DNA of 47,253 nucleotides from a virus: positions 1-47,253 of IMG/VR virus record IMGVR_UViG_3300027754_000152. The stretch is one strand, 5' to 3'. A program made the position numbers and the translations under genes. The notes beneath the pieces are model-generated. The model was not told where the DNA came from. It worked only from the letters and a program-made list of their open reading frames with translations, and ran no database searches. Numbering within the stretch: position 1 is the first letter of the stretch; the number at the start of each line of letters is the position of its first letter. Of the stretch, positions 6,974-34,800 are shown piece by piece.

Positions 6974-7228
6974 TTATTTAGATTTCGGTAGTTGACTAGC
7001 TGTGTTAGAATTAAAAACAACTGGAGGTTGCGGCTTAGCAGCTTGCGGCGGAGGCGGAGTAGCAATCGGCGGCACTACATTTTTTGGCGCAGGTTTCTTT
7101 ATCTCATGCACGCCCAGCTTTAGCATAACCTTATCCATACCACACGTACAGCTAGCTTCTTTCAACTCCGGTAGCTTCGAATCAATAACACAAACTGTAC
7201 CACACTTAACACACGTATATTTATTCAT
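6974..7228 (-). CDS. Zinc-ribbon protein with Pro-rich tail
   Basis: This 84-residue protein has an N-terminal zinc ribbon formed by CVKCGTVC (Cys at about 5, 8 and 12) and a second knuckle, CTCG, at about 27-29. A Pro/Ala-rich low-complexity tail follows (PPIATPPPPQAAKPQPP). Its start overlaps the terminase stop (ATGA at 7225-7228). It may bind nucleic acid or a partner at the packaging motor, but no function is known. Confidence 0.7.
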   Translation of the reverse strand: MNKYTCVKCGTVCVIDSKLPELKEASCTCGMDKVMLKLGVHEIKKPAPKNVVPPIATPPPPQAAKPQPPVVFNSNTASQLPKSK

Positions 7229-8877
7229 ATATTAACTATCTGTCTACTATTGTTTACGTCTTTAACTAGACGTTTTAAGCGTGAAATATCTCTTGATATA
7301 AACGCCGCTGTGTGACCCGTAAAATAACCACTCTGAAACTCATCCTTTGCCCACTCTCTTATACTTAGCGGTGCTTTAAACTCGTTTTCCGCTTTCTCTT
7401 TATCTTCTGGCGTTTCTTTATACTCTTGTCGTATTGCACTATCATCTGCAGTTAACTTACTCTTGTATTGTGAATAGCATAATACCACACTATCCGCACG
7501 GTCTGGACTAGGTCTACCCGCTGCTCTTGCTTGCAACTTTGACTCTAGCTTATGTTTATTCCCTTCCGTTATCTTGTAATACCTAGTAGAGAGCTGCCTT
7601 ACTAACCGATCATCCTGGCACAGCCACGCTTCGCCAGTCTCTAATAGTTTACCAAAATTAAACCACATCTCTGCGCCGCGATTAATATACACGCGGTCGT
7701 TGTACGCTTTGTTCTGGTTAAGCACATACCTTATATTCGTCCAGCCTTTTGACCTCAACTGGTCAATAATCGGTTTACCTAACCCACCAGCGTCTGCATA
7801 TATAAACGCATTCGGTTTATCCAACCCGTGTTCCTTAAACTTCTCTACCAGAAAATTAACTGTATCTTGTGTGTTATTGAATCTAAATGGGATAACCTTT
7901 AATAACTTATTCCCATTGCGCACACTTAACACTGTCTCGTCACCACCCGCAGATAAGTCTAATCCGCCAGTATTAACCGGTTCAGACAACCAACCTAGTG
8001 TATCTCCTACTCTGTTAACCGAACGCCAGATGTGTGTATATGCAATCACAGTCATCTCATCCGTAGTACCAAACTCTGCTAGTACGCAAGATTTAAACGC
8101 TGCTCCGTTCTCACCGCCGGGCATTAGCGTTTTAAGTTCCTCAATATACGCTAGTGACAAATGCGAACAATCATACGCGGTAATATGATACTCTACCCAA
8201 CCGCCGTTAGCATCAAGTATGTTATCCAAGTCTTTACGGTTTCGCGAGCCTGTACAGACGTTGAAGAAATGCCCCATAGGAAGTCCAGGGCTAGATACGT
8301 CCACACGATGAGTAAACCCTGTGCAGCGAGCAAGTGCAGTAAAGATTTCATCTGGAATTGATTTAGCTTCGGAAGTAAAAATTGCAAGTTTTCCATCGTT
8401 AATAATCGGATGCCATCCTTCTGCGCGACCTGCTTCATCTGTAACAAACAATTCTATCGTTGAACGCGATATCTGACACTCATAATGCCGGTAGTTAATC
8501 TTCCAGCAATTTGGATCAATCTTTGCATTACACTGTTCTGCTAGTTGTTGTATGTATTTATTCGTTTGCCTGTCTAGCTGAGTGCCAGATGCGCTAGTTA
8601 CGATAGAGACCGCTTGCGTGTATTTAAGCGAAAACCACACTACGCACGCCGCAATAATGTATTTATCTTTTCCGCTACCATTAGCAGCACGAACCGCAGC
8701 TTTAAACGGACAGTCAGCTGTCCAGTCTTTAGCAGCAAAATCTAACATAAACTGCATCTGCCATTTGTGTAGTTTTTCTTTGCCCTCAAGTAAGTTATCA
8801 TCTAACACTAACAATAACTCATACGGGTCGGTAAACTCTAACGACCTTGCAACTGCGATTTCGGGAATCTGTTCCAT
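7225..8877 (-). CDS. terL: Terminase large subunit
   Basis: This 550-residue packaging ATPase-nuclease carries a Walker A-like ANGSGKDK at about residues 65-72, within the KAAVRAANGSGK context that is typical of TerL. An acidic segment follows (LAIFTSEAKSIPDEIF) that is the probable Walker B/coupling region. The C-terminal RNase H-fold nuclease begins at GLDLSAGGDE, about residue 304, whose Asp residues should bind metal, and continues with IYADAGGLGKPIIDQL. It would pump DNA into the prohead through the portal and cut the concatemer. It follows directly after the small-subunit candidate (1 base apart) and is ATGA-coupled to the zinc-ribbon gene. Confidence 0.93.
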   Translation of the reverse strand: MEQIPEIAVARSLEFTDPYELLLVLDDNLLEGKEKLHKWQMQFMLDFAAKDWTADCPFKAAVRAANGSGKDKYIIAACVVWFSLKYTQAVSIVTSASGTQLDRQTNKYIQQLAEQCNAKIDPNCWKINYRHYECQISRSTIELFVTDEAGRAEGWHPIINDGKLAIFTSEAKSIPDEIFTALARCTGFTHRVDVSSPGLPMGHFFNVCTGSRNRKDLDNILDANGGWVEYHITAYDCSHLSLAYIEELKTLMPGGENGAAFKSCVLAEFGTTDEMTVIAYTHIWRSVNRVGDTLGWLSEPVNTGGLDLSAGGDETVLSVRNGNKLLKVIPFRFNNTQDTVNFLVEKFKEHGLDKPNAFIYADAGGLGKPIIDQLRSKGWTNIRYVLNQNKAYNDRVYINRGAEMWFNFGKLLETGEAWLCQDDRLVRQLSTRYYKITEGNKHKLESKLQARAAGRPSPDRADSVVLCYSQYKSKLTADDSAIRQEYKETPEDKEKAENEFKAPLSIREWAKDEFQSGYFTGHTAAFISRDISRLKRLVKDVNNSRQIVNI

Positions 8878-9298: not shown

Positions 9299-9428
9299 GT
9301 TTATCTATCTGTTCGCCGCTGTTATTGTTCTCTTTAATCGCTGCTTTAACCATCGGACTAGCCATTACCAGTTTCGCGCTCATCTCCGAGAACCCTACCA
9401 ACGCTAGTTCTATTTCTTTTTGTTTCAT
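9255..9428 (-). CDS. Small leading protein of the late unit
   Basis: I start this 57-residue protein at the ATG at 9428 (MKQKEIELAL); an upstream TTG at 9461 is possible but less likely. The N-terminal half is hydrophobic/helical and the C-terminal half polar (NNNSGEQIDKHGHE). It overlaps the small-terminase gene by 44 bases and is the first gene after the sigma-54-like promoter, with a predicted leader of roughly 36 bases. Function unknown. Confidence 0.55.
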   Translation of the reverse strand: MKQKEIELALVGFSEMSAKLVMASPMVKAAIKENNNSGEQIDKHGHECNNDTDSRTR

Positions 9429-9475
9429 ACTTAACTTTATATTCCTCACTACCCGCCGCAACTACCTAGCCTATT

Positions 9476-9491
9476 AGCATATCCCATGCCA
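9476..9491 (-). promoter_or_regulatory. Sigma-54-type (-24/-12) late promoter
   Basis: Read leftward the site is TGGCATGGGATATGCT. It matches the sigma-54 consensus TGGCACG-N4-TTGCW at the GG and GC dinucleotides with exact 10-base spacing, plus the flanking TGGCA, G and TTGCW-type bases. It is followed by AATAG. The other genomic copy (16837-16852) shares TGGCAT-N6-TGCTAATAG exactly. Transcription would start near 9464 and run into the terminase/head genes. The host sigma factor and the phage AAA+ protein at 15452-16243 are the expected activating pair. Confidence 0.7.
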
Positions 9492-10003
9492 CATTTTCCC
9501 TCTACTCTGCACGCTCAGTGGCTCTAGTATATAGTTCAACTTTAGAAATTTATCATTTCGAGCGACTATGTTAGTTCCGGATACGCACGTTGCTTCTGGG
9601 GAGGACTGGCTAGGTAAGTTGCTATCGGTAGTATATCGGAGCTAAACTAGCGGTCATAAGTAGCACTAATGCGAAGGATAAGTAAATTTCATGCGGGTTT
9701 GCTAGCGTTAGGATTGATCCGAGAGAATAGCCCGGATCATCGCCCTGGCTAATTGCAAAACGAGTTGCGCAACGTGACGCTGGAAACTCTCCACGCACAC
9801 GCACACGACTAGCGTTGCGTTGCGTAAAGTTAGCGCAACGGCATTTGGCAGACCTCTCCGCGCAACTCCGCGCAACGGCAGAAGTTAGAGTAGAGTAGCG
9901 TTTATACTAGCGTAGAGTTGAGTTGTGAGAATAGAGAGAGGAAGTTGCGTTGCGCTGAGACAACATAATTCAACGGCAGACGGGGGAAGATAGGCGGAGA
10001 AAG
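9492..10003. other. Non-coding region between late promoter and small operon
   Basis: About 510 bases with no credible gene. It holds the GTTGCGC/GCGCAAC repeat cluster (9762-9956), a small inverted repeat GATCCG/CGGATC (9716-9721 with 9733-9738), and an 11-base direct repeat copy ATCGCCCTGGC (9739-9749) that recurs at 10999-11009. A TATAAA-like box faces left at about 9902-9907, but I found no good -35. Candidate roles are a packaging site, a replication origin, or activator-binding sites upstream of the late promoter. Confidence 0.5.
9762..9956. repeat. GTTGCGC / GCGCAAC iteron-like cluster
   Basis: The 10-base palindrome GTTGCGCAAC lies at 9764-9773. Half-sites follow: GTTGCGTTGCG at 9814-9824, GCGCAACGGCA at 9833-9843 and again at 9870-9880, CGCAAC at 9860-9865, and GTTGCGTTGCGC at 9944-9955. 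A further GTTGCG occurs at 10033-10038. Clustered short repeats in both orientations next to the terminase genes suggest a protein-binding array, such as a packaging site or origin. Confidence 0.6.
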
Positions 10004-10006
10004 AAA

Positions 10007-10035
10007 AACGCCCTAGCGGGTTAGGCTAGGGCGTT
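10007..10035 (-). terminator. Intrinsic terminator of the 10.05-10.83 kb operon
   Basis: AACGCCCTAGC (10007-10017) and GCTAGGGCGTT (10025-10035) form a perfect 11-bp stem with a 7-base loop. Read leftward it is followed by TTTTTC (the A-run at 10004-10008). It ends the small leftward operon and insulates the late promoter region. Confidence 0.9.
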
Positions 10036-10052
10036 GCGTAGTGGATTAGGTG

Positions 10053-10271
10053 TTAGGTGTTAGTTGAGAAGGCACGGCGGATTACTCCGCGCGTGATCAT
10101 GTCAGCTTGTCGGGTCTTATCCTCGTACACTTGGCGAGCGTGTAGCTTGGCAAGTTCGGCGTTTTTTATTTCATCATGTTCGGGCGCATATAATCCATTT
10201 GCTATCACGCTAGCTTGGCGACGAATAGCGCAAATTACGAGATGGCTAGCTTTTGTGGGGTTGGTTTTCAT
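10053..10271 (-). CDS. Small basic protein, unknown
   Basis: This 72-residue protein is helical and Arg/Lys/Ala-rich (AELAKLHARQVYEDKTRQADMITRGVIRRAF). It is the second gene of a two-gene leftward operon, 20 bases after its partner, and is followed by a strong terminator. No motif is recognised. The leader (TTATTAACTAAAATG) has no Shine-Dalgarno sequence, as elsewhere in this genome. Its early position beside the divergent control region suggests an early host-takeover or regulatory role (inference). Confidence 0.65.
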   Translation of the reverse strand: MKTNPTKASHLVICAIRRQASVIANGLYAPEHDEIKNAELAKLHARQVYEDKTRQADMITRGVIRRAFSTNT

Positions 10272-10291
10272 TTTAGTTAATAATTAATAAT

Positions 10292-15451: not shown

Positions 15452-16243
15452 ATGACAGACATACTATCACCGGATATAATGCAGCATCTAACTAATGCTC
15501 GCGTTATAGCATTGCTAGCTAGCGGCAGCAAACCAAACATCAACGAGCTAGCTAAGTTCATCATCGCACAGGATGCGTTCAAGACTAACGACCCTGATAC
15601 TATCAAAATGAAAGACCGCGCTATCAAACTAGCAGACCGAGAGGAGTCTGTTATCATACGTGGCGAGTCAGGCACAGGCAAGGAACTTGTAGCACAAATG
15701 CTACACGGCTCACGCACAGGTAACTTCGTAGCGGTTAACTCTACTGCTGTCACCGAGACACTATTCGAGTCAGAGCTATTCGGTCACGTGCGCGGTTCCT
15801 TTACTGGCGCAGCCACAGATAGAGCAGGGCTGATAACATACGCTAACAATGGCACGCTATTCTTTGATGAGATAGGTGATATGCCATTGACATTGCAACC
15901 AAAGATACTGCGCGTGTTACAGTCTAGGAAGTATCGCGTAGTAGGTAGCAACAGCGACCAGCAAGTCAAGTGCCGTATCATAGCAGCTACGCATATGAAC
16001 CTAGAAGCGTTAGTCAAGCAAGGCAAGTTCAGGCTAGACCTCTATCAACGACTGGCTTGCTTCGAGTTGCATATCAAACCACTGCGAGAACGCAAGGAAG
16101 ATATCCTGCTACACGTACGCGACGAGCGATTACTACACGTGCTATCAGAACTATGGGGCAAGACAGGCAATGAGTTCTTGCTAGGTAATGTCCGCGAGTT
16201 AGAAAACATAATCAAACGATGGGAAGTACTAGGAGAAATATAA
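15452..16243 (+). CDS. Sigma-54 activator-type AAA+ ATPase, core domain only
   Basis: This 263-residue protein is a near-complete bacterial enhancer-binding-protein core. Motifs: Walker A GESGTGKE (71-78); the sigma-54-contacting loop GSFTGA (115-120, canonical GAFTGA); Walker B LFFDE (136-140); sensor I AATHMN (178-183); arginine fingers in FRLDLYQR (R194, R200); and sensor II GNVREL (245-250). There is no receiver/GAF domain; the first 60 residues are short and helical. There is also no C-terminal Fis-type helix-turn-helix, as the protein ends about 13 residues after sensor II. The lid is slightly shortened. Family members that lack a DNA-binding domain (FlgR, CtcC) can activate from solution. 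It is expected to hydrolyse ATP to open host RNA polymerase-sigma-54 promoters, here the two phage sites. Confidence 0.9.
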   Translation: MTDILSPDIMQHLTNARVIALLASGSKPNINELAKFIIAQDAFKTNDPDTIKMKDRAIKLADREESVIIRGESGTGKELVAQMLHGSRTGNFVAVNSTAVTETLFESELFGHVRGSFTGAATDRAGLITYANNGTLFFDEIGDMPLTLQPKILRVLQSRKYRVVGSNSDQQVKCRIIAATHMNLEALVKQGKFRLDLYQRLACFELHIKPLRERKEDILLHVRDERLLHVLSELWGKTGNEFLLGNVRELENIIKRWEVLGEI

Positions 16244-16576: not shown

Positions 16577-16798
16577 ATGAAACTATCAGATGACCCAGAG
16601 TATGCTAAGTGGCTAGCGTCAATGAAGAAACCACACAAGCTATCGAAGACGCTTACGTACAAAGGTATGACCAAGACGTATAAGGAATGGGCAGAGGTGC
16701 TAGGTATCAGCCGACAGACTATCAAAGATCGCGTCCGTAACAAGTGGACTGTCGAACAAATACTAGAGACACCGCAAATGGTTAACAGGTACAAGTAA
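16577..16798 (+). CDS. Small helix-turn-helix protein
   Basis: This 73-residue basic protein carries a clear C-terminal helix-turn-helix of the type often attached to homing endonucleases. The pattern is TYKGMTKTYKEWAEVLGIS (about 27-45), followed by RQTIKDRVRNKW (recognition helix) and a terminal helix. It lies just before the sigma-54-like promoter at 16837. It could act as the missing DNA-binding half of the activator module or be an independent regulator (inference). Confidence 0.7.
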   Translation: MKLSDDPEYAKWLASMKKPHKLSKTLTYKGMTKTYKEWAEVLGISRQTIKDRVRNKWTVEQILETPQMVNRYK

Positions 16799-16826
16799 CA
16801 ATACAGCCACCAAGATGAAATAGATT

Positions 16827-16841
16827 TGCCAATTTTTGGCA
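16827..16841. promoter_or_regulatory. Inverted repeat overlapping the -24 box
   Basis: TGCCAA (16827-16832) and TTGGCA (16836-16841) form a 6-bp inverted repeat with a 3-base spacer. Its right half is the -24 element of the promoter at 16837. A protein bound here would compete with sigma-54. Alternatively it is a weak hairpin after the preceding gene. Confidence 0.4.
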
Positions 16842-16852
16842 TCAATCCTGCT
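16837..16852 (+). promoter_or_regulatory. Sigma-54-type (-24/-12) promoter, rightward
   Basis: TGGCATCAATCCTGCT matches the sigma-54 consensus with GG and GC exactly 10 bases apart, TGGCA at -24 and TGCW at -12. It continues AATAG, so TGGCAT-N6-TGCTAATAG is identical to the leftward site at 9476-9491. The predicted start is near 16863, with a leader of about 74 bases before the gene at 16937. The unit would include that gene, the structured RNA and possibly the replication genes. Confidence 0.7.
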
Positions 16853-16892
16853 AATAGACTGGCAGCTAGCGCGGCGTGTGCCGTAAACTAGA

Positions 16893-16920
16893 CAAGTAGT
16901 AAACAACAAGTAGTAAACAA
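16893..16920 (+). repeat. 14-base tandem duplication in leader
   Basis: CAAGTAGTAAACAA occurs twice in a row (16893-16906 and 16907-16920) in the A-rich leader of the gene at 16937. Unstructured A-rich leaders can substitute for a Shine-Dalgarno sequence, so it may raise translation of this apparently highly expressed gene. Confidence 0.7.
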
Positions 16921-16936
16921 ACAACAATAGAAATAT

Positions 16937-17416
16937 ATGTCAGATTCCACAACTCCCTCTATCGCATTCGAAGTCATTCCGTATCGTAAAGGCGGCGACG
17001 CTGAACAGTTCTCCTATACCACAAAAGTCTATCCGACTATCGAGATTGCTATCGAAGACCTCGGACAGGACGTAGCGTTGGACGTGTTGAATGCGGAAGT
17101 TGCTGCTCGCATCGGTATGCGTGCGCGTAATGCGGCTGGCTTTACCAAGCTGGCTGAGGCTCCTGCTGCTAATCGTGCTAGCGTTAAGAACGAACTGCTG
17201 GCTCATCTGCTCTCGAAGTATCCTAGCAAAGTTATCTTCTCTGAAGATGATGCGCGTAATTGGAAACCCGGAGTGCGCGAGCTTACCTTGACTGGTATCC
17301 AGAAGAAGATTAACGAGGCTTACAAGTCTGGTAACATGACTGACTTTACCTTCTGGGTTGGTCAGTTGCAAGCTGCTGCTCAGCGTCAGCAAGAGCGCGT
17401 TGCCGCTGGACTGTAA
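16937..17416 (+). CDS. Probably abundant small protein, unknown
   Basis: This 159-residue protein is the first gene after the rightward sigma-54-like promoter. Codon use (CGT, GGT, GCT and AAG enriched) is like the ssDNA-binding-type gene at 21489 and unlike its neighbours, suggesting high expression. The sequence is mixed: an N-terminal beta region, then helices (LDVLNAEVAARIGMRARNAAGF; KNELLAHLLSKYPSKV), ending Ala/Gln/Arg-rich. No family is recognised. A hairpin with CAGAC/GTCTG follows, as after the 21489 gene. Confidence 0.75.
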   Translation: MSDSTTPSIAFEVIPYRKGGDAEQFSYTTKVYPTIEIAIEDLGQDVALDVLNAEVAARIGMRARNAAGFTKLAEAPAANRASVKNELLAHLLSKYPSKVIFSEDDARNWKPGVRELTLTGIQKKINEAYKSGNMTDFTFWVGQLQAAAQRQQERVAAGL

Positions 17417-17437
17417 TCGGTAGTTAGTACACGCGCT

Positions 17438-17459
17438 GACAGACCGCTTATAGTCTGTC
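17438..17459 (+). terminator. CAGAC/GTCTG hairpin after the 16937 gene
   Basis: GACAGAC (17438-17444) and GTCTGTC (17453-17459) pair around an 8-base loop. There is no T-tract, so it may protect the mRNA 3' end rather than terminate. A very similar hairpin follows the 21489 gene (22022-22045). It can also be read as the first helix of the structured RNA. Confidence 0.5.
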
Positions 17460-17461
17460 GA

Positions 17462-18182
17462 TTAAATAGAGTAGATAGTGATATAGTTATCTGCTGGTGC
17501 TACTAAGCCAATCAGATACTATCCGTGTTGTTGACTGTTCGAACTATATACAACCATCAGTATCTACTCTATTTAGTCTAGTCATTTTAAGCAGAAGGTA
17601 ACGCTAGGAATAACCAACGAATACTAGCGCGGTTGGGTATGGGTGAGTGATAGTATCGGTCATGGGCTATCGCTTGTTTGTTTGCCGAAGTGAATCCTAC
17701 TTGGTGACTAGACTACAACTTTGATACAGTCATATATAAGAGATAAGCGGAGTAGGTAATCGACTATTACCACACGCAAAGACAGCCTAGTCAGCTCGCT
17801 GTATCACTAATCTTGCCGTCAGAGAAAAGTACTTGTTTGGGTTCAAGCAACTGTTGGCGTAGCCTAACAGATGACACTAGCTATAAATACAAACGCATCT
17901 AAAACAGTTGCAAACGCTCTGACGGCACATCAATCCTCCACTATGTAGGAGTAGTAATACATAGCATCATAGATAGAAACAGAACGGCTTGCTTCGCGCA
18001 TCCTTCTCTAGTATATCGCCCGCGTGGATGATGTAAACTTACTGCGCTGGATTAGAAACAGAAGTTCTCTGGGTGGTAGGTAGCAATGGTATGGAACAAG
18101 GAGGTGTTAACCATCTAGTTCTTATCTATCTAGGCTTTGGTTGTGCGACACGTACATACTAATCCCGAACTACCTACCACTC
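17462..18182 (+). ncRNA. Large multi-domain structured RNA candidate
   Basis: No credible gene is present, but consecutive closed domains are bounded by long perfect helices. D1: 17463-17477 with 17561-17575 (15 bp), containing ATATAGTT/AACTATAT and TATCTG/CAGATA hairpins. D2: 17574-17584 with 17705-17715 (11 bp), containing CGCTAG/CTAGCG, GTGATAG/CTATCGC and AAGT/ACTT. D3: 17722-17729 with 17799-17806 (8 bp), containing GGTAAT/ATTACC. D4: 17814-17824 with 17917-17927 (11 bp), containing a nested 9-bp helix 17847-17855/17903-17911. Smaller hairpins follow at 17941-17964 and 17965-18033. D5: 18071-18083 with 18170-18182 (13 bp, one G-U). This resembles the layout of large ornate RNAs (GOLLD, ROOL), but I cannot assign a family. 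The strand is inferred from the upstream promoter. Confidence 0.75.
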
Positions 18183-18209
18183 TTTGAACATAACTTAAAC
18201 AAACAAACC

Positions 18210-18785
18210 ATGTCAACCCGTATAACACTTAGCAATCTTGTCCCCGTAGATATCGACGAGTCCGCTTCAAGTACGCATCGTCCGTACTATACCGAGTTCA
18301 ATGCGCTAGCTGTCAAGCCTATCTTTGACGCACTCATTGCTAACAACAAGTCAGTCTTCTACTCTGCCTCGCAAGCTGGATGTTCTAACTCCACGCTACA
18401 CTCTAAGCTATTGTATGGCATCAAATGGCTATGCGATAACGACGCAAACAAGGAAGCATACAAAGACCTCAAGAAGAAAATCTTCTTCAAGAAAGTACCC
18501 GCTGGCATACAGATCAGGTTCGATACTACCAAGATGATGCTTGCTAACCTAGCCGAGGTAGGCAAGGTAGTCCACGAGGACTCGGCAAACACGAGGTGGA
18601 TGGACACGTTCACTTCTTGGATAGGCACGGCAAAAGAACTAGATGTGTTCGACTCGGAGAAGATACTAGGCGGTCGAGTGGATATCAACGACGAGGCGGA
18701 GATGGCGTTGATTAAAGTATGTGCGCAGCTAGGCTGTGAGCTAGACTGCAAGAAGTCTGACGGAACTTTTATCGTAATGAAATAA
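18210..18785 (+). CDS. Unknown protein following the structured RNA
   Basis: I start at the ATG at 18210 (MSTRITLSNL), giving 191 residues. An upstream in-frame extension lies inside the last RNA helix and is unlikely. The protein is soluble and alpha/beta, Lys/Asp-rich, with a central KDLKKKIFFKKVP basic stretch and a C-terminal IKVCAQLGCELDCKK segment. No motif is recognised. The leader is AAACAAACAAACC-ATG. Confidence 0.65.
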   Translation: MSTRITLSNLVPVDIDESASSTHRPYYTEFNALAVKPIFDALIANNKSVFYSASQAGCSNSTLHSKLLYGIKWLCDNDANKEAYKDLKKKIFFKKVPAGIQIRFDTTKMMLANLAEVGKVVHEDSANTRWMDTFTSWIGTAKELDVFDSEKILGGRVDINDEAEMALIKVCAQLGCELDCKKSDGTFIVMK

Positions 18786-18789
18786 CACT

Positions 18790-19086
18790 ATGGAACTAAC
18801 ACAACAAGAACAGCTAGATGATATTGTAGATACATTCAAGGGTCAGTTCAAGTCCAAGTTCATGAAGGGACAGAAGGAACACGGCGGATACTTCTACGAA
18901 AAGCCTATGCTGTGGAACTTACGCGAGGAGTGCTTGGATATGGTAGCATACTCGCACGTGCTTGAGATACATCAGGAAGAAATCCTCCATGCTATCTCTA
19001 TGCTTATGCTAGACCTGAAGACGCTCACGTATGAGGAGATTGAGACTCGCCTAGAGGAGTTACTCAAACAAGTAGGTAACCTATGA
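18790..19086 (+). CDS. MazG-like nucleotide pyrophosphohydrolase-type protein (probable)
   Basis: This 98-residue helical protein has a central FMKGQKEHGG, followed by LWNLREECLDMVAYSHVLE. The pattern, with a Gly/Lys region before an E-x-x-x-D metal-binding helix (REECLD), is that of all-alpha NTP pyrophosphohydrolases (MazG/dUTPase-like) used by phages to control nucleotide pools or (p)ppGpp. The length suits a single-domain enzyme. It is ATGA-coupled to the next gene. Confidence 0.6.
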   Translation: MELTQQEQLDDIVDTFKGQFKSKFMKGQKEHGGYFYEKPMLWNLREECLDMVAYSHVLEIHQEEILHAISMLMLDLKTLTYEEIETRLEELLKQVGNL

Positions 19087-19322
19087 CAATCAAACAACTG
19101 CTTGCTACATCAGTAGATGACTTAGAGAAGATGACTGATGAGGAACTGGTAGCACACCTCAAGCCGTATATGATAGCAGTTGAATCTATGCGTGTGCCTA
19201 AGACTAGTTCAGTCATTGACGTTAGTGGTGCAGCAGAGAAGTCAGCAAAGAAAGCAGAGAACATAGATGAGTTCATCAAGCGCATGACAGCTATGATGAC
19301 TCAGAAGATGGAGGCAGTATGA
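19083..19322 (+). CDS. Small helical protein, unknown
   Basis: This is a 79-residue, mostly helical protein (VDDLEKMTDEELVAHLKPY; AEKSAKKAENIDEFIKRMTAMM). It starts within the previous stop codon (19083-19086) and ends overlapping the next micro-gene (19319-19322). No family is recognised. Confidence 0.65.
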   Translation: MTIKQLLATSVDDLEKMTDEELVAHLKPYMIAVESMRVPKTSSVIDVSGAAEKSAKKAENIDEFIKRMTAMMTQKMEAV

Positions 19323-19396
19323 TAGGAATAGCATTGGCAGTAGCAGCATTCTTTATCTGGAGAGCAGTAACAAGCATAACAAATACTAAACACTAA
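19319..19396 (+). CDS. Single-span membrane micropeptide
   Basis: This 25-residue open frame (MIGIALAVAAFFIWRAVTSI, then five polar residues) would span the membrane once. Its ATG overlaps the stop of the preceding gene (ATGA), like the confirmed small genes here, and a comparable 30-residue membrane micropeptide occurs at 27680-27772. It may be a regulator, holin-like, or an adventitious frame. Confidence 0.45.
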   Translation: MIGIALAVAAFFIWRAVTSITNTKH

Positions 19397-19410
19397 ACTT
19401 AAAAACCTAT

Positions 19411-20337
19411 ATGATGTTAGAACGCGACGCGGTAACTGGTAAACATATCCTACGTATTGATGCTTCCTTGTATAAGGAAACAGACTGTCTTCGGTATGTG
19501 TTGTATAAACTAATCTACGGCTACTCTACCAACTCAGGTATGGTAACGAAGGAAGCTAAGATGGAATACGGAACAGCTGGGCATAAGTTCTTGCAAGCTA
19601 GATACGATGGTAAGTCTTTAGAAGAACAGCTAGCAGCGGCGCATGAACACTTCAGCGACCCGTCTATTTTAGTTGCTGATAGCGAGTGGAGAAACATCGG
19701 TCACTTGACTAACACGCTAGTGACGTATGATATGTACTACAAACAGAACGGCGACCATATCACGCCGACAGCTACAGAGCAGCGGTTCATGTATCCGTTC
19801 TATAAGACCGACAACGTAGAGGTACTAGTGTGTGGCACTGCTGACTTGCGAGGCGAGTACTTCCAACAGGGCGCAGCTATTATAGACCACAAGTTCACCG
19901 CAGCGTGGAACAAGTACGAGTACCTAGGCGAGTACGACCTGAGTGTGCAGTTGATGTTGTACAAGTGGATATGCGATAAGCTATTCAACGCAGACCACGG
20001 GTGTATGATCAATGGTATCTTTATCTCAAAGGTCAAGCCTGCTAGCTTTATGCGCTCCGACTTGCTACGCTTTTCCTCTGAACAGATTGGTTGCATGGTA
20101 GCTCACTTGCGTTCGAAGGTCATAGCTATTGTTGAGGCGTTAGAGTATATGCTTGCATACAACAGCGATGCGTTATTCACGCCTAACTACTGCGCGTGCA
20201 TCAAACGCTACGGAGAGAAAGCCAGTCCGTGTGCGTACACTATGCTCTGCAAGCAGCCGAGGATGGAAGAAGCGATTGCTATCGCTGACAGTATGTTCGA
20301 GAAGAAATCCTATAACCCTATGCTTTTTCAGTTATAA
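19411..20337 (+). CDS. PD-(D/E)XK nuclease, RecB/Cas4-like
   Basis: This 308-residue protein has the core of the RecB-type nucleases: an early His in EYGTAGHKFLQA (about residue 50), the metal-binding Asp in CGTADLRGEYF (about residue 140), the catalytic D-x-K as IIDHKFT (about 155), and a following QLMLYKW motif. C-terminal cysteines (YCACIKRYGEKASPCAYTMLC) could support an Fe-S cluster as in Cas4/AddB. Such enzymes process DNA ends in recombination, and it precedes a Sak4-like ATPase. There are two consecutive ATGs at 19411. Confidence 0.85.
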   Translation: MMLERDAVTGKHILRIDASLYKETDCLRYVLYKLIYGYSTNSGMVTKEAKMEYGTAGHKFLQARYDGKSLEEQLAAAHEHFSDPSILVADSEWRNIGHLTNTLVTYDMYYKQNGDHITPTATEQRFMYPFYKTDNVEVLVCGTADLRGEYFQQGAAIIDHKFTAAWNKYEYLGEYDLSVQLMLYKWICDKLFNADHGCMINGIFISKVKPASFMRSDLLRFSSEQIGCMVAHLRSKVIAIVEALEYMLAYNSDALFTPNYCACIKRYGEKASPCAYTMLCKQPRMEEAIAIADSMFEKKSYNPMLFQL

Positions 20338-22436: not shown

Positions 22437-24932
22437 ATGATCGAACTACCTAAAACAAACTATAGCGGATTGACAGTAGTTCTAGATAAGCCATCGAGGT
22501 TTGACTTCGGTGGCTTACTCTCTGGATACGCTGGTCAATTCTTTGATAACTGTTTACTCGCAGATGCTAAGCATGGCGTACATCGCGGGAACATAGAAGT
22601 GCGTACGTTAGATGAATGTATCAAACCATTCCGTGATGGTACAAAAGTCCTCCTCTTACTAGGCGAGGCGTGTATGAAGAAGTTTAACCCAGCAACAACA
22701 CTAGGCGAACAACGCGGCTCACCATTTACCTATGAAAACAAAATCTGTATTGCAACCTACGCTCCGCAAGACGCATTCGATCGCAAGCAATTCTTTGACC
22801 CATCGGATAGCGACGGAGATGGAGACTCTGATGGAGATGACTCTGAAGGTAAAACGACGCATGGAAAAACTAGAAGAAAGAATTGGAAATTCTGGATGCG
22901 ACAAGACATTAGAAAGTCGGTTAGAATTTGCAAGAATGGTATTACAGAATACAGCCCAGATTATATCTTGTATCCAGAAGCGCAACTCGTGTGCAAGCTA
23001 CTCGAAGAAACGAAAGGAAAAGACTTCTACTTTGATATCGAAACAGATAGCTGCTTGCAACTCACTTGCTTCGGATTTTCGTTCGGGGATTCTAAGGTGG
23101 TCGTAGTGCCAATGATGCAGACATATCATAAACCTAGGAAGTATTACTATGATGAAATCACGACTGCTAAGATACTGCGAGCGTTGGCTATTTGTCTCCG
23201 TGATAATACTGTTGTTATACACAACAGTATGTTCGACTTGTTCGTACTCGCTTGGAGGTATGGTATTCCTATCGGCGATAAAGTATTCGACACTATGCTC
23301 TCTCATAGCCGTTGCTATATTGAAGTCGAGAAATCATTAGGGCATTGCATCTCGCTATATACAGACCTGCCGTATCACAAGAACGAGGGCGTGTTCGAGC
23401 CACACAATAGCGCACAGACTGAGATGCTGTATAGGTACAATGGCAAGGATGTGTTTGCTATGACGCTACTCAAGGCTGCAATAGAAGACAAGGCTAAGAC
23501 TATCGGCGCAACAGAGAGCGTGCAGCAGGTTAATAGAATGGTAGTTCCATATCTCACGGCGACATTGCAAGGCATGAATGTCAACTGGGATAAGCTACGC
23601 GGTGTGATAACAAGCAACGACCGCATGAAGATACAGATCAATCGTATGCTGAGTATCCTCACAGGTCGCGCTGAGTTTAATTCAAACTCACCTAAGCAAG
23701 TATCTACATACCTATACGACGAGCTTGGATTGAAGAAGCCAGAGAAGGACTTGACAAACGAAAAGACATTACTACAACATCAGCTTAAGAATGAAATCCC
23801 TGCCATCACAGCTATCCTCGAATACCGCAAGCTCACCAAGCAATCAGGCAAACTTGGATTCACTCCTTATAGAGGAGTATATAACCATGACAGATATAAT
23901 CCAGATGGTACTCTTACAGGCAGCTACCTCGGGAGCGAGCGGCTTACCTGTTCGTATAACTTGGCTGGAACCACCACGTACAGGTTGTCATCAAGAAAAC
24001 TACTCGGGCAATGGGGAGACAACTGTCAGAATTTCGAGAAAGGACTTCGTAAGATTGTCGTTCCAGATGACGGCAAGGTCTTTGTACAATGCGACCAAGC
24101 GGGCGCAGAAGCTCTGATAGTATCGTATCTATGTCGCGCAGGTAAGTTTAGAGACTTGTTTCTTAATGGCATCAAGCCTCACGTGTATGTAGCATTGCAC
24201 GTGTTCGCTGAGCAATGGAGCAAGATGCAAGATAAGGTAGATAACAACACCCTGATACGTGCGCTAGTAGCAGAGCCTAAAGACCTGAAGAACGTAGATG
24301 GATGGAAGAAGCTAGAGACTGTTATCAAAGACAGCGACAACTGGGAAGCATCGCGTAGGTATTACTTCATTGCAAAGATGATCTGTCACGCATCAAACTA
24401 CGGGATGAAAGCTAGGACGTTTAGGATTAACGTATTGCAAAAGTCAGATGGTGCAATAGCAAAGTCAGTAACCGAGTGCGAGCAGATGTTAGCAACATAT
24501 CATAACCTGTTCCCTGAGATTGGTGCTTGGCATAATGATGTAGTAGCTTCGGTAAAGCGTTGGTCAATGCTGAAGAACCTGTTCGGTCATCCTAGAATCT
24601 TTACTGGACATCAGGATGAGAGTGCGTGGAAAGAATGGTTTGCATTCGTGCCACAGAGTACAGTAGGTCAGATTACTAACTATGCGTTCACAGAGTTGCA
24701 GGAAGAAGTGTTCGCAGGTAAGCATCCGTTGGATATAGACATCCTTGAAAACAACCATGACTCTATTCTCGCACAGTGTTTGCCAGAGAATAAGGAGTAT
24801 GTAGCTACGTTGATATCGAGCAAGCTAAACCGCAAGCTCATGTCGCCTAGAGCAGAGGAGTTCTATATGAAATCAGAAGCGCAGTATAGTGAAAAGTCTT
24901 GGGGAGAAATGACAGAATTAACAAACAAATAA
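22437..24932 (+). CDS. DNA polymerase I (family A) with N-terminal UDG-like region
   Basis: This is an 831-residue replicative polymerase. Residues 1-110 look like a uracil-DNA-glycosylase fold (VLLLLGEACM; RGSPF; ATYAP). An acidic linker follows at 121-137, rich in Asp and Gly. The 3'-5' exonuclease has DIET (D200, E202), IHNSMFD and YNGKDVF. Polymerase motif A is CDQAGAE (D553, E558; canonical DYSQIE, so Ser and Gln are replaced), motif B is KMICHASNYG, and motif C is NHDS (H774, D775; canonical HDE, so the Glu is Ser). Catalytic Asp residues are kept. It is followed 6 bases later by the ligase gene. Confidence 0.9.
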   Translation: MIELPKTNYSGLTVVLDKPSRFDFGGLLSGYAGQFFDNCLLADAKHGVHRGNIEVRTLDECIKPFRDGTKVLLLLGEACMKKFNPATTLGEQRGSPFTYENKICIATYAPQDAFDRKQFFDPSDSDGDGDSDGDDSEGKTTHGKTRRKNWKFWMRQDIRKSVRICKNGITEYSPDYILYPEAQLVCKLLEETKGKDFYFDIETDSCLQLTCFGFSFGDSKVVVVPMMQTYHKPRKYYYDEITTAKILRALAICLRDNTVVIHNSMFDLFVLAWRYGIPIGDKVFDTMLSHSRCYIEVEKSLGHCISLYTDLPYHKNEGVFEPHNSAQTEMLYRYNGKDVFAMTLLKAAIEDKAKTIGATESVQQVNRMVVPYLTATLQGMNVNWDKLRGVITSNDRMKIQINRMLSILTGRAEFNSNSPKQVSTYLYDELGLKKPEKDLTNEKTLLQHQLKNEIPAITAILEYRKLTKQSGKLGFTPYRGVYNHDRYNPDGTLTGSYLGSERLTCSYNLAGTTTYRLSSRKLLGQWGDNCQNFEKGLRKIVVPDDGKVFVQCDQAGAEALIVSYLCRAGKFRDLFLNGIKPHVYVALHVFAEQWSKMQDKVDNNTLIRALVAEPKDLKNVDGWKKLETVIKDSDNWEASRRYYFIAKMICHASNYGMKARTFRINVLQKSDGAIAKSVTECEQMLATYHNLFPEIGAWHNDVVASVKRWSMLKNLFGHPRIFTGHQDESAWKEWFAFVPQSTVGQITNYAFTELQEEVFAGKHPLDIDILENNHDSILAQCLPENKEYVATLISSKLNRKLMSPRAEEFYMKSEAQYSEKSWGEMTELTNK

Positions 24933-28010: not shown

Positions 28011-28853
28011 TTATGTAGCAGGAGTACAAGTTACTAGCAGTTGGTGACCTTCTTCTCTGTTGATGTTCTTATCCCTGATAGTAACCCACCATCCTCCGAG
28101 TGGTCTGCCAGCGCGACCACCGCTAGCGTGCCAACCACGAGTTTCATTCTTGTAGGTTGAGCCACGCAGAAACCTTTGGGTACGCTGTGTAAGCCTACCC
28201 TTTGGAGTGACAGTAGTCATTACGTTCTCGTCGTAGTTCCTTCTGTGAATGTGACCAGAGTAGAATAGGTCAGCATCGTACTGTCCACGAGTTCTATTGT
28301 TGTCAATCATACCACGCGTTACTTCACCACCACCTCCGTATCCATGATGATAATGCAGTACGTGAGTCTGGATTCTTTCTTTTGATTTTATACGTAGCAA
28401 TACGTATCCCCAATAGTCACCCTTTGATATCCCCAAGTGGGATGTGAGTCTATCAATCAAGTCAGTCTCATGTCTATCGAGTATCGACTGTTCATGATTG
28501 CCTGGGGCGATTAGCGCAATGTTATCTTTGTACGGCTTGTACCATTCGGTAGCTGTATTGACTAGAGAGTCTAAGTATTTGTTCGTGTGATGTTCAGGGC
28601 GCAACTGATTCATGTCAGCGCGTTTGTCCCATTTACCTTGCATTGCGCAGAATGTATCCCCAAACTTTAGGATAGGCGCACCTTTCTTTACCGCTTCTTC
28701 GTGATGCCTACGCAGTAGGTCTCTATCACATTCCTTGTTGTCCCAATGTTCATCAGACATGAGGAGTACAGTACACTCCTCGCTTGTCTTATCCACGTTC
28801 CACTCTATCACGTGAACTTGCCGACTGAGTTCTTTTATAGTCCATTTGTTCAT
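28011..28853 (-). CDS. Calcineurin-like metallophosphoesterase
   Basis: This 280-residue protein carries all the expected metal ligands in order: SDEHWDN (Asp-x-His, about 32-34), FGDTF (about 63), GNHEQ (Asn-His-Glu), HYHHGYGGGG and GHIHRR. It is expected to cleave phosphate esters (nucleotides, nucleic acid or phosphoprotein). It is the last gene of the late unit, ATGA-coupled to the giant protein, so it is a virion-stage or late-stage enzyme (inference). Confidence 0.88.
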   Translation of the reverse strand: MNKWTIKELSRQVHVIEWNVDKTSEECTVLLMSDEHWDNKECDRDLLRRHHEEAVKKGAPILKFGDTFCAMQGKWDKRADMNQLRPEHHTNKYLDSLVNTATEWYKPYKDNIALIAPGNHEQSILDRHETDLIDRLTSHLGISKGDYWGYVLLRIKSKERIQTHVLHYHHGYGGGGEVTRGMIDNNRTRGQYDADLFYSGHIHRRNYDENVMTTVTPKGRLTQRTQRFLRGSTYKNETRGWHASGGRAGRPLGGWWVTIRDKNINREEGHQLLVTCTPAT

Positions 28854-31800
28854 AACGGTACGATTGAAGATTTAACTTGATTGATTGTATTGCGAGTCAT
28901 GTAGTCCATGAGCATCTTAGACGCAGCTTGTTGTCCATGTTCGCGTTGTAGGAACCGTAGGTATTTGCTAAACACTACAGGGCTAGACTCAAGGCTAGGG
29001 AATACATCGTATGGATTAGCTTTTAGTCCTTCGATCTTACTAAGAAGTACATCAGGATTGCTAGCGTATTCTTGGATGTACTTACGGATAATGTCGGGCA
29101 TTATGCTAGCAGCTTCGCCAACATCTTGTGTCTGCTTGAACCGCTTCTGTTCTAGGTTCAGATACGGATTGGACTGAACATCAGTAGAAGGATTAACAGG
29201 CACACCCTCGACTTGTTTGAACCGCTTCAGCTGACTCATGGCATCAGAGTGCTTTTTCTCGTAGGCGTACTCCTCTAGCTCACGACGAGCAGCTTTCGGA
29301 ATAGACTTGTCCATGTTCTCATTGACAACGCCAGAGTTGATAAGTTGATTCATCGCAACACGTCCGAGTTGACTGTTATGCACAATCATATCAGACATAG
29401 CACGACTAGCAATCTGCAACACATTCGCTGTCGGGTCGTGTGCTAGTGCATCCGCTACGTTCATTGCAGTCCGTGTGTACTGAGTTGTCACTTCGTCAAG
29501 CGGGAAGATAGCTCCCTGCGGTAAGTTACGATACGCAATATCAAACGGATACTTAGCGGCTAGCGATATCAAACCACCCAGACCACCATAGCCAGCGGCT
29601 GACATCCAGTTGTATGCAACAGCAGGTATATTACCTTCGATGCCCTTGCTACTTGCAGCGATATCCGCAAGTGAGGGAATCGGAGACTCCTTACCAGATG
29701 CACGTTCACGCAACTCTTTGATGATAAACCCACCAAGAGTAGCACCGAACGTAGTCATGATAAGCGGAGTGATATTACCTTGCATAGCAGGCGCCCAAGC
29801 GTTCTTCATGAACGAGTTAGTCTGTGACACGTTCCACGACATCAGCTTAAAGAACGAGCTAACCTCGTTATCATGCAACATCCACGTAGGCATTGTGCGA
29901 GCATCGCGAGTACCAGTAAGGAAACCAGCCATACGAGACGCAAGCTGTGTCTCTTCCATTGCGGAATAGGTCTTGCCAGCAGTCCAGTCAGGATCAATTT
30001 GCTTCATAGTATTGATAGCAATCTTGTCTCCGTTGTTAGCCGCGTCAATCTTACGCTGTACAAGATACTCAGAAGTACCCTGTGCTAGTCCGACTTGTAG
30101 CTTCTCCGTGAGTCCGTTGAGTGTGTAGATACCACGGATACCTTTAGCGACGAGGTTAATCTTCTCAGCGACAGATACGTTAGAGTCAAAGAACCGTTTC
30201 ACTTGTTGCGGATTCTCAACAACTAGTCCGTTTTCTTTCGCATGAAAGTAAGAACGCCCAATGTTAGTTGCGCCGTGAAACATAGCCTTAGCAAACTCTA
30301 CAGGATTCGCAGCGAAGACAGATGCTTGGAAAGGCGCAGCTGCCATCTTGTGAATCTCAGTAAGCGGTCCGAGGATAATCGAGCTAGCAAGACCTTCCGA
30401 AGCACGCTGAGCGCGTTGACTATACGGAGTTACTTCGCCACGAATCTGGTCAAGTACCGACTTAACAGAGTCGTTGCCGTGGATGTTATTGATACCAGTG
30501 CGGTTAATCTTATTGCCCCACGCGTCTTCGTTATATCCTAGGCGCGCAGATACTTCAGGGTTATCTTCAATGTTCTCGTAGTGAGACATATCCATAGAAG
30601 CACGGCGAATGTAGTTAGCCATGTTTTCCATAGGATTCATACGACGCAAGCTATCAGGCAACGGAATACCAGCCTGTTGACGCATAGCGTTGAAGTGCGC
30701 TTGTGTAGGCAGCGACTGAGACTTAGCACTACCTTGGTGCGCATCTACAAAGTCTGCCCACGCCTTGTCTAATCCTGTTGGCGTAGTTGCAGGTAAGTGC
30801 TTCAGGTAATTATCTTGGAAGTCCTGCTTGAACTTTGCAATCATCGGCGCATCTGTGTTCTGCCGAATGATGTCGCCCATCTTAATCTCCTCCGTGGTAG
30901 GATAGTACCACTTGTCGGTGATAGGTTTAGTGGGTACACCATTACGCATAACAGGTTCGTTAATCGCTAGGCGATGGTCTTGAATATCAGACAGCGTCTT
31001 GCGAATAGCCTTGTACGCAGCGCGCTCATCAGCAGAGCGAAGCATGGTAGCATACGAACGCTTGTCACGATTTTCAGAACTAAGAACAGCATCTAGCCGT
31101 TTGAGCTGCGCATCGTTAAGACCTTTACCTGCTTCTTCCACTGTTGTCCAGAACTTACCTTGTAGTTCTTTCGCAGTGTTAAGTGTACGAGTAAAACCCT
31201 TGGCAACGATTTCACCATCGGGACTGATGTCGCGTACCTTGTCAATGGCAGAGCTAGTGATAGGGTCAACAACGCGAGATAGCAAGTCACGCCGAGGAGC
31301 AGACTGAATGCTTTGTTCTAGTTCACGCTCTATCCTGTCACTGGTTTCTGTACTGCGTCCTGCTGGGCTAGCTTGAATTTCCCTGCTTTTGCTAGTACTT
31401 CCTCCCATTTCACTCCTAGGTTGCCCGCTAATTCTTGTAGGTTCTGCCGCGTACGGCTGTCCGCCTTGCCCACGTTGGATAGCGCCCAAGATAGTATTAG
31501 CTGTCGATCCTGTACTGTGCTGTTGTGCTTCATTATATAAGTCAGTTAATTGTTCAATGGCTATGTTTCCTCCGTTTGCTTTTATGCGTGACTCAATAGC
31601 TCTCCGCGCATAAACAGCTGCTTCGTCAATAACGTAAGCCATACGCGTCATTGATCTAGCGTGTTCTTCTCCTTCACTGTGGCTTTCTTGATGACAGATT
31701 TCATGTAATGCTGTACCAGTAATAGCATGAGCATACGCTTTAGCTAAATCATAATCACCATTAGGCATTAAATATTCGTCGCCACCAATAAGTTTTTGTA

Positions 31801-34800
31801 CACTACTTGCTGTCAGCAACGGGTCATAGTATATTTTACCTGGAGAACCAACAGCAAGTGTTCCAACACGAATACCATAGAATTCACCATTAACAGCCAT
31901 GCCTTTGTATTCAACATTGTTAAATACTTTGCCATAGCCTGCCGCGTTTAGTTGCTTCCACATCATTAAGTGCATATCTTGTATGCCTTTATTTAAGCTG
32001 CGAATTACAGGATGATTAATGATTTTATCTACAACATCTTTTGGTATGTTTTGTGACATATCCACAAATTTAGACCTGCTACCTGCAATGTTAGGCGCAT
32101 TAGAAAGCGCAGTTGTTACAAGGTCAACTTGTTTTTGCTTTGCTATTGTTGCTAAATTGCCGATAAGTTCTTCCACTTTTGTTTTAGCCGGACCTTTTAA
32201 TTCATCACGACTAGTAGTAAATGGATAGTTACCATCCTTAACATCAACAGTTGGGATGATGTTAATTATCATGTCTTCAGGCAATTTTACATCGTTGCCT
32301 GCACCGCGTGTTTCAAACTGTAGCATTCCATGATTAGCAACAGGTATGCGATATAGATTATCTACTTTAGCTGTTGGTGTATAATGAATTTTAACAATAG
32401 CACCAGGAACTGTTTCTGTTGTTTGTTCTGGAGGATTGCTTCTGACAGGCTGATAACTAGCAGTACTCCACCCTTCAATCACATCATTGTTTGACCTTGG
32501 AGGATCATGCAAGTATACTTTTTCAAATTTAACTTCATTGTTTAAGTTATGCTCAGCTATTTTGCTTAACTCGTAATCATAATATGACGAATGAACTATG
32601 CTTCCTTTTGGATCAAGTTTAGGTAATTTAATGTTCATCACAGTTCCCGTAGGTTTCTGTGACTCAGTTACTGTAACTTCAAGTCCGCCTATGTTATACG
32701 TTTGTCCTAGTTCTAATGCAGGAATCTCAATCATTTCAGGCTCAGTAAAGCTTTTCCACTTTTCGCCTGTGCCTGAAATCTTAGTCTGAATATTTTTGCC
32801 AGTTGTAGCATCTTTAGATACAGTAGTCATTTCCCATGATTCAGGCGAACCAAGTACCGCAATCTTTGCAAGTCCATAACCACCAAGCGCACGGTCAGAG
32901 TTCTTACCAGTAACAAACGCAGGTAAGAATTTAGTCAGCGCAATGTCAGGAGACATGCCTGTGCCAGTATCACCAAACACGATTGTGCCAGTGTCATCGT
33001 CGGCTCCGTATACTATTTTACCTTCAGTAATGTTACCGGCTTCTATATTTTCACGAATAGCATCAATGCCATTCTGTGTAAGTTCTTTTGCTAGTGTTTG
33101 TGGCAAGCCTTTGTCGTACATAGACGCACCAAAAACATCTAATGCACGGCGGATATCTGCACCTTTAACGCTTTTAGCAGTTGTTCTATACTCAGGCGAA
33201 GGTTGAATATGTACCTGACCATTACGCAATGACCAGCTAGATTCTTTGTTAGCAATCTTATACATAGCTTTTTCAGAACGCTCAAACAAAGATTGTTCTG
33301 ACGGGTCAAAACCAAAGAGTTTTCCAATAATATCTTTGATCTTTTCCCATACGCTTTTGCCACCTTTAGTCTTTAGTGCCTGAAGTGTTTTGCGGAATTC
33401 ACGTGAGGAATTTGAGTGCGCAATAAACTCATACGGGTCACTCATGCCGTATGCAATATGTTCTATTGTATTAGCATTAGGACGAATGCCTGATGGAAGT
33501 TTAATGTTTAAGTTAAGCGCTGTGTCCATTAATATCTGTCCTTCGCCAGCTAAACCTTGACCAGGATGATACAAAACCGAAGTAAGACCAAACTGATCAA
33601 CAGCTTCGTTATAAGTTTCAAGGAGTTCTTTTACGCGTTTATCAGTTTTTGGATCAGCTAGAATTTTGTCAATAGCTAGTTTTTGCGCGTATCCCATTTT
33701 ACCGTGCAATTCAGGCGGAAGTTTAAATGTAGTTAGTGCATGACGAATTTCGTGCATCAAAACATCTTCACTAGCACCGGTGTGCGATAGTTTAATTTTG
33801 TTTGCCGCCATGTCAAAGTAACCATAATCATGCAAATTTAATTTTTCAGGCTGCACAGCTACGTTTAATGACCCACGGTCTGCCATCTGATATAGTTTAC
33901 GCGCAACTTTAGCATACGCGCTAGTACCGCGATTAGCCATGCGAGCAAGCAACGTACCAATAGTAGCTTTGCCACTACCAATATGCGCGGCATCATCAGG
34001 GTGCATCCTATTACCGCGAAAACCAGCCGTGCCAGTAGGAGTTGCTACTGTTTTATCTTTAGGCGCACTCTGAATATTTTCTGCATTACGTTCTTCAACC
34101 CAACGATTAAACTCAACAGAGTTTTCACGCGGAGGAATACCGCGATTATCACGCACGGCGTTGACTTGTTCAGGAGTGACACGCAGACTACGAGCAATCT
34201 GCGTAACAGTTTTACCTTGCATCGAGAGTGCTTCGATAGTATCAGCAACACCAGATTGTTCCAGTGGTTCTGCCAGTTCACGTGTGGGTTCGTCTATACC
34301 ATAGGCGCGCGGCGCAATAGTACGTTCGCCCGTAGGCATAGTAGGTTCGGGCAGATTAGTTTGGCGTGCGATAGCATTACGGAGAATAGCATCAGGTGTG
34401 AGGTTAGTCTTAGCAACACGCTCAGGAGATGCAGGAGGTAGTTGCTGATTGCGTTCGATTTCAGCAGCACGGCGCGCTTCCTCAGCTAGTGCGAGGTTAC
34501 GTTGACGTTGCGCTTCATCCATCTGTTGTTTGATCTTCGCAGCTTCTTCTTCGCGTGCAGCTGCATATGCTTCTTCGCGTTGCTTCTCTAGTTGCTTTAT
34601 GTTTTCTTCATGCGCTTCGAGATGTGCAACACGAACCTTTTCGTTATTCAAAAAGTCTTGATCTTGCGAACGCTTCTGTTGTTTCCAGAAGTCAACATAC
34701 TCATCTGAAGTATTCATGTACTGTTTAACTGCACCAGCAGTTTCAGTATCAATATTCTTCAGCGACTGTTCGTACATATACTGACGCTTCTGCTCGTTCG

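Follow-up and report, generated by a model that had tools for sequence, protein, structure and literature searches.

A large structured RNA region between two conserved genes of a tailed phage, a candidate new RNA family

The locus and its genes

The window, meaning the whole 47,253-nt stretch of DNA analyzed here, is linear and comes from an IMG/VR virus entry (IMGVR_UViG_3300027754_000152). Its packaging and replication genes are of the tailed-phage type. The features that bear on the region of interest are as follows.

7225–8877: large terminase, recognized by eye from its ATPase motifs
15452–16243, + strand: sigma-54-interacting AAA+ ATPase (PF00158, E value 6e-57; phrog_7998, E value 1.8e-40), the gene just before gene A, conserved in relatives
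16837–16851, + strand: sigma-54 type promoter TGGCATCAATCCTGC, a −24/−12 match before gene A and the likely transcript start
16937–17416, + strand: gene A, 159 aa, conserved through the phage group (AlphaFold pLDDT 82)
17417–18209, + strand: structured non-coding RNA region filling the gene A–gene C interval
18210–18785, + strand: gene C, 191 aa, with homologues in relatives (predicted structure pLDDT 78)
22437–24932: family A DNA polymerase

Sigma-54 promoters require an activator of the AAA+ ATPase kind, and the ATPase at 15452–16243, from its domain matches, probably activates the one at 16837. All 30 genomes that have gene A carry a −24/−12 element upstream of it, with a score of at least 13 in 29 of them; as several of the loci are almost the same, the 30 do not count as independent observations. 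As background, random 160-nt windows reach a score of 13 in 1.1% and of 11.9 in 2.6% of cases. Of all copies, that of the window, TGGCATCAATCCTGC, scores lowest (12.2), and it lies at the same position as in the other genomes. An exact TGGCACG-N4-TTGC was also observed at the start of a 500-aa late gene, both in the window (3244, − strand) and in the relative IMGVR_UViG_3300028800_000125, hereafter G001 (L008:6519, + strand).

Neither the predicted fold of gene A nor that of gene C gave a significant PDB match. The helices followed by a beta hairpin in the gene C model weakly suggest a winged helix. Throughout the window, genes start without a Shine-Dalgarno sequence; their leaders are A-rich (TAAACAAACAAACCATG, for example), which suggests a host that initiates translation in this manner. 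The − strand at 28850–35896 encodes a single late protein of 2348 aa, for which only a weak HATPase_c match was obtained (E value, 0.0011).

No conserved ORF was identified in 17417–18209. The longest ORFs inside it encode 20–34 aa, and none resembles sequences of the relatives, so that the initial annotation of a gene-free stretch of about 745 bases was borne out and no conserved protein crosses the region. The locus is set among sigma-54-driven replication genes rather than in a lysis or tRNA context: a PD-(D/E)XK nuclease and a Sak4-like protein are encoded in the window, with the replication and recombination genes coming after the RNA region, and ARAGORN detected no tRNA genes in the window or in the corresponding G001 locus (L002). 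Intrinsic terminators (GC-rich hairpin followed by a U-run) were absent from the + strand of window positions 16600–19500 and of L002 5600–9000. A sigma-70 type promoter was likewise absent from the + strand of the window interval; the G001 interval has one 9-of-12 match, which lies inside a 96-aa ORF.

Folding of the non-coding stretch

The + strand of 17417–18209 folds with an MFE of −242 kcal/mol, giving z-scores of −4.75 (20 shuffles) and −6.8 (40 shuffles). The − strand of the same region gave −2.5, and nine coding control windows of equal length ranged from +1.1 to −3.4. Perfect stems tiled over the region total 51 bp compared to a shuffle mean of 17, a value matched by none of 400 shuffles, and they span 454 nt, which was equalled in one of 400. 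The domain count taken alone is unexceptional, being reached in 32 of 400 shuffles. The stretch is therefore long, non-coding and folded beyond chance on one strand, as expected of the broad kind of large structured phage non-coding RNA, and it is very likely to be a real structured RNA. The domains were mapped as follows.

17437–17460, + strand: D1, hairpin of 8 bp, mean pair probability 0.85, with a counterpart hairpin before D2 in the relative (L002 6707–6737)
17460–17578, + strand: D2, closed domain with a 15-bp core (17463/17575) in a helix of up to 18 bp, probability 0.98
17576–17713, + strand: D3, closed domain with a 9-bp perfect helix, GUCUAGUCA/UGACUAGAC, present in the fold of the isolated domain
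17722–17806, + strand: D4, closed domain with a 9-bp helix, probability 0.85
17814–17927, + strand: D5, closed domain with an 11-bp perfect helix, probability 0.98, containing the alternative pairings of 17851–17855
17941–17964, + strand: D6, small hairpin of 7 bp within a weakly structured link
18071–18182, + strand: D8, last closed domain, with a 13-bp helix, probability 1.00, followed 27 nt downstream by the start of gene C

The closed helices sit where the initial annotation had put them. Its description of five back-to-back closed domains holds for the closing helices, which are present, but the domains do not all adjoin one another, because the 143-nt link between D5 and D8 (17928–18070) is weakly folded. 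The closing helix of D3 is weak in the full-length ensemble, with a mean pair probability of 0.16 compared to 0.85–1.00 for D1, D2, D4, D5, and D8, because it competes with other pairings; this poor support for D3 in the global fold counts against the main reading given below.

The two alternative pairings proposed earlier for the CTGTT segment at 17851–17855 were both recovered by computation, in the domain numbered D5 here and D4 in the earlier annotation. In the full-length ensemble, the CUGUU segment pairs locally with a probability of 0.78 and takes part in a 9-bp helix (17847–17855/17903–17911) with a probability of 0.18. Within the domain, the local fold (−36.4 kcal/mol) and the long-helix fold (−35.1 kcal/mol) differ by 1.3 kcal/mol. 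In this model, the alternative pairing of D5 could possibly work as a switch.

The gene A–gene C slot in G001 and other relatives

G001 was the sole close relative found. It is fully syntenic with the window, and its proteins are 37–75% identical to those of the window at the amino acid level. Flanking-protein searches returned this one relative, and a terminase search returned G001 together with a 7.5-kb fragment lacking the region. BLASTN with the RNA against phages and plasmids gave no match, and scans of genome contigs for the terminase and polymerase gave no further relative. When the D2 helix pattern was searched over IMG/VR, six records were obtained, of which five were chance occurrences (coding, tRNA or unrelated) and one was G001. 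The gene A–gene C interval of G001 measures about 1.64 kb and is organized as follows.

L002 6517–6666: 49-aa ORF, read directly from the sequence
L002 6667–7290: structured stretch, z-scores −5.8 and −5.5, stem tiling reached in 1 of 400 shuffles
L002 7311–7601: 96-aa ORF downstream of the structured stretch
L002 7602–8141: second non-coding stretch of 540 nt before gene C, z-score −1, fold no better than shuffles

The opposite strand of the structured stretch gave a z-score of −3.0, compared to −5.5. Global alignment of the window and G001 RNAs yielded a score not above shuffles, and D2 is the only helix recognizably common to both. Comparison of D2 with L002 6741–6827 demonstrated 10 consecutive identical base pairs, a number reached by none of 5000 shuffled helices. 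Past these, U17472–A17566 in the window is replaced by A6751–U6817 in L002, a compensatory change, and two identical pairs come next. The order of elements is also kept in the two genomes: a small hairpin, D2, more closed domains, a strong last helix (13 bp in the window and 11 bp in G001), an A-rich leader, and the next gene. Based on the identical pairs and compensatory change in D2 and on the shared layout, the two RNAs look homologous, with the layout kept, the sequence replaced, and one covarying pair in support. Since there are only two sequences, which cannot be aligned outside D2, covariation cannot back the other helices. The test for compensatory changes thus yielded one pair, within one helix and two sequences. 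The strand-specific folding energy, the lack of any Rfam match, and this second syntenic genome with a shared layout and one homologous helix support the earlier proposal that the large structured phage RNA is new.

Within the second non-coding stretch of G001 (L002:7602–8141), a perfect helix of 12 bp closes at 7617/7732, and a piece resembling a tRNA T-arm (GGGTTCGAGTCCC) lies near 8022; this stretch also gave a weak YrlA match (E value, 0.28). Elsewhere in G001, the long region between divergent gene blocks (L007:18804–19673) contains a long inverted repeat around TTGACGTGATTCATCACA and folds better than shuffles (z-score, −5.1); the counterpart region between divergent gene blocks in the window (9299–10291) is also long and, with a z-score of −1.8, folds no better than shuffles.

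A polymerase search gave 61 loci, G001 included. Among these, the 35 more distant relatives that have both genes show −25 to 89 nt between gene A and gene C, and compared to these 35, the slot is filled in the window and G001 only. An intrinsic terminator, made up of a strong hairpin with a U-run after it, was identified in the gaps of seven of nine inspected relatives. Since the window and G001 have no terminator there, the structured RNA occupies the place of the terminator.

A separate small RNA motif, named R1, was observed in most loci among L013–L072. It consists of 80–165 nt in one or two tandem copies upstream of the DNA polymerase or a DUF669-like gene; examples are L032:1302–1389 and 1398–1532, and L052:7853–7940 and 7948–8074. 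The consensus GGUACA..GCUAUUAAGAYGC..UUGAUCGCC lies within a covarying closing helix, both bases of which vary at 10 of its 11 pairs, and the hairpin loop UAUUAAGAY could form a pseudoknot with UUGAU at the junction. No match was found in Rfam (four loci searched), INPHARED or the literature, and R1 is regarded as a new conserved RNA motif of marine relatives, distinct from the window RNA. R1 was rejected as the identity of the window RNA: a default model search of the window and G001 found no copy, and with filters off, the best hit in the two reached 9.3 bits for the helix only, compared to 47–81 bits for true members.

Possible role and relation to known large RNAs

Given the sigma-54 promoter before gene A and the phage activator gene, the RNA is most likely transcribed from this promoter, as the downstream portion of a longer transcript. 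The phage ATPase would switch on the promoter, and sigma-54 RNA polymerase would then transcribe gene A, the structured RNA, and gene C in order, with the RNA of about 770–790 nt folding domain by domain during synthesis. A stand-alone RNA would be released from this transcript by processing, or would accumulate out of it, and the abundant structured product would most likely act in trans. In our main reading, to which we assign a probability of about 0.5, the region is a new, fast-evolving large RNA family of tailed phage, made in the gene A transcript and probably acting in trans as a stand-alone RNA. Structure beyond chance, strand preference, a homologue in a second genome, and a conserved promoter-like element with an activator gene were computed; from these we infer transcription, processing, and trans action. 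A separate RNA is countered by its ends, which are marked by no promoter, terminator or known ribozyme. A bolder version, tentative at best, is that of a new ornate phage RNA class unrelated to GOLLD and ROOL, under phage sigma-54 control, trans-acting and possibly an RNA-only multimer, whose architecture has been kept while its sequence was almost wholly replaced.

A role in cis within the gene A–gene C mRNA accounts for the same facts, which counts against the trans reading. The RNA may be a structured mRNA spacer that replaces the gene A terminator, shields the 3′ end of gene A against decay or Rho, and determines how strongly gene C and its downstream genes are expressed, possibly by means of pausing or of the alternative pairing of D5. 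It lies at the exact site of the intrinsic terminator of the relatives, neither gap has a + strand terminator or, apart from the G001 match inside an ORF, a sigma-70 promoter, D8 ends 27 nt before gene C, and D5 has two near-isoenergetic folds. However, a multi-domain structure of about 790 nt far exceeds the needs of a spacer or attenuator, and in G001 the element is followed by the 96-aa ORF and 540 non-coding nt, so that the two genomes differ in how far it lies from gene C. We consider this explanation rather unlikely, but next after the main reading.

The two other explanations are less likely. A drifting, functionless insertion into a slot that tolerates additions, its structure owed to chance or repeat origin, would fit the nearly complete sequence divergence, the additional ORFs accepted by the G001 slot, and the absence of the element from most relatives. 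It is improbable, given that stem tiling and z-scores are far off shuffles in both genomes, that D2 was kept with a compensatory change while the remainder diverged, and that some 800 functionless nt are seldom retained in compact phage genomes. A DNA-level element, for example a replication origin or protein-binding inverted repeats, with incidental RNA structure, appears more improbable still. The inverted repeats are present in the DNA as well, and genes for the PD-(D/E)XK nuclease, Sak4-like protein, and DNA polymerase follow downstream, but the folding excess is strand-specific (z-scores of −6.8 vs. −2.5 in the window and −5.5 vs. −3.0 in G001), most relatives lack the element yet keep the genes, and no iterons or direct repeats were noticed.

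To our knowledge, few structured RNAs of very large size have been described from bacteria or phages. A candidate independent of the known families, with a defined promoter, activator, and neighbor genes, is a testable system. It also suggests that large structured RNAs may escape sequence-based family searches because the fold alone persists.

Covariance-model searches of the window matched no Rfam family at the gathering score, GOLLD and ROOL included; at E ≤ 5, three eukaryotic-type chance matches were the only hits, and the G001 element likewise had no match at this threshold. The RNA is therefore not identified as GOLLD, ROOL, OLE or any Rfam intron or ribozyme. Structured 3′ UTRs and intrinsic terminators between phage genes share its slot, that of the gene A terminator in relatives, whereas the window RNA has no U-run, has several domains, and is approximately ten times longer. 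OLE RNA resembles it in size class and ornate fold; OLE is found mostly in the genomes of Gram-positive bacteria, and proteins that partner with it are known, whereas the window RNA gave no model match.

The initial annotation had likened the RNA to GOLLD and ROOL. The likeness stands for size and layout; membership in either family is not supported, given the lack of a Rfam match and of a tRNA neighborhood. ROOL is about 660 nt long, is encoded by phages and prophages, and gives a very abundant transcript (PMC12286853). It is of comparable size to the window RNA, phage-borne, and ornate; the window RNA differs in having no tRNA island nearby and another promoter context, and neither it nor its G001 counterpart matched the ROOL model. 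GOLLD is phage-encoded and large, with many examples over 800 nt, is often near or contains tRNA genes, rises in expression at lysis, and forms a 14-subunit RNA nanocage (PMC12286853). Multimerization has been described for both GOLLD and ROOL, in a study that leaves open whether large natural RNAs commonly form nanocages (PMC12286853). Membership in GOLLD is not supported, given the absence of a covariance-model match at E ≤ 5 and of tRNAs in the window and L002. Like GOLLD, the window RNA is large, phage-encoded, rich in closed helices, and weakly conserved in sequence, whereas it has no tRNA within or near it and is found downstream of a sigma-54 promoter in a set of replication genes.
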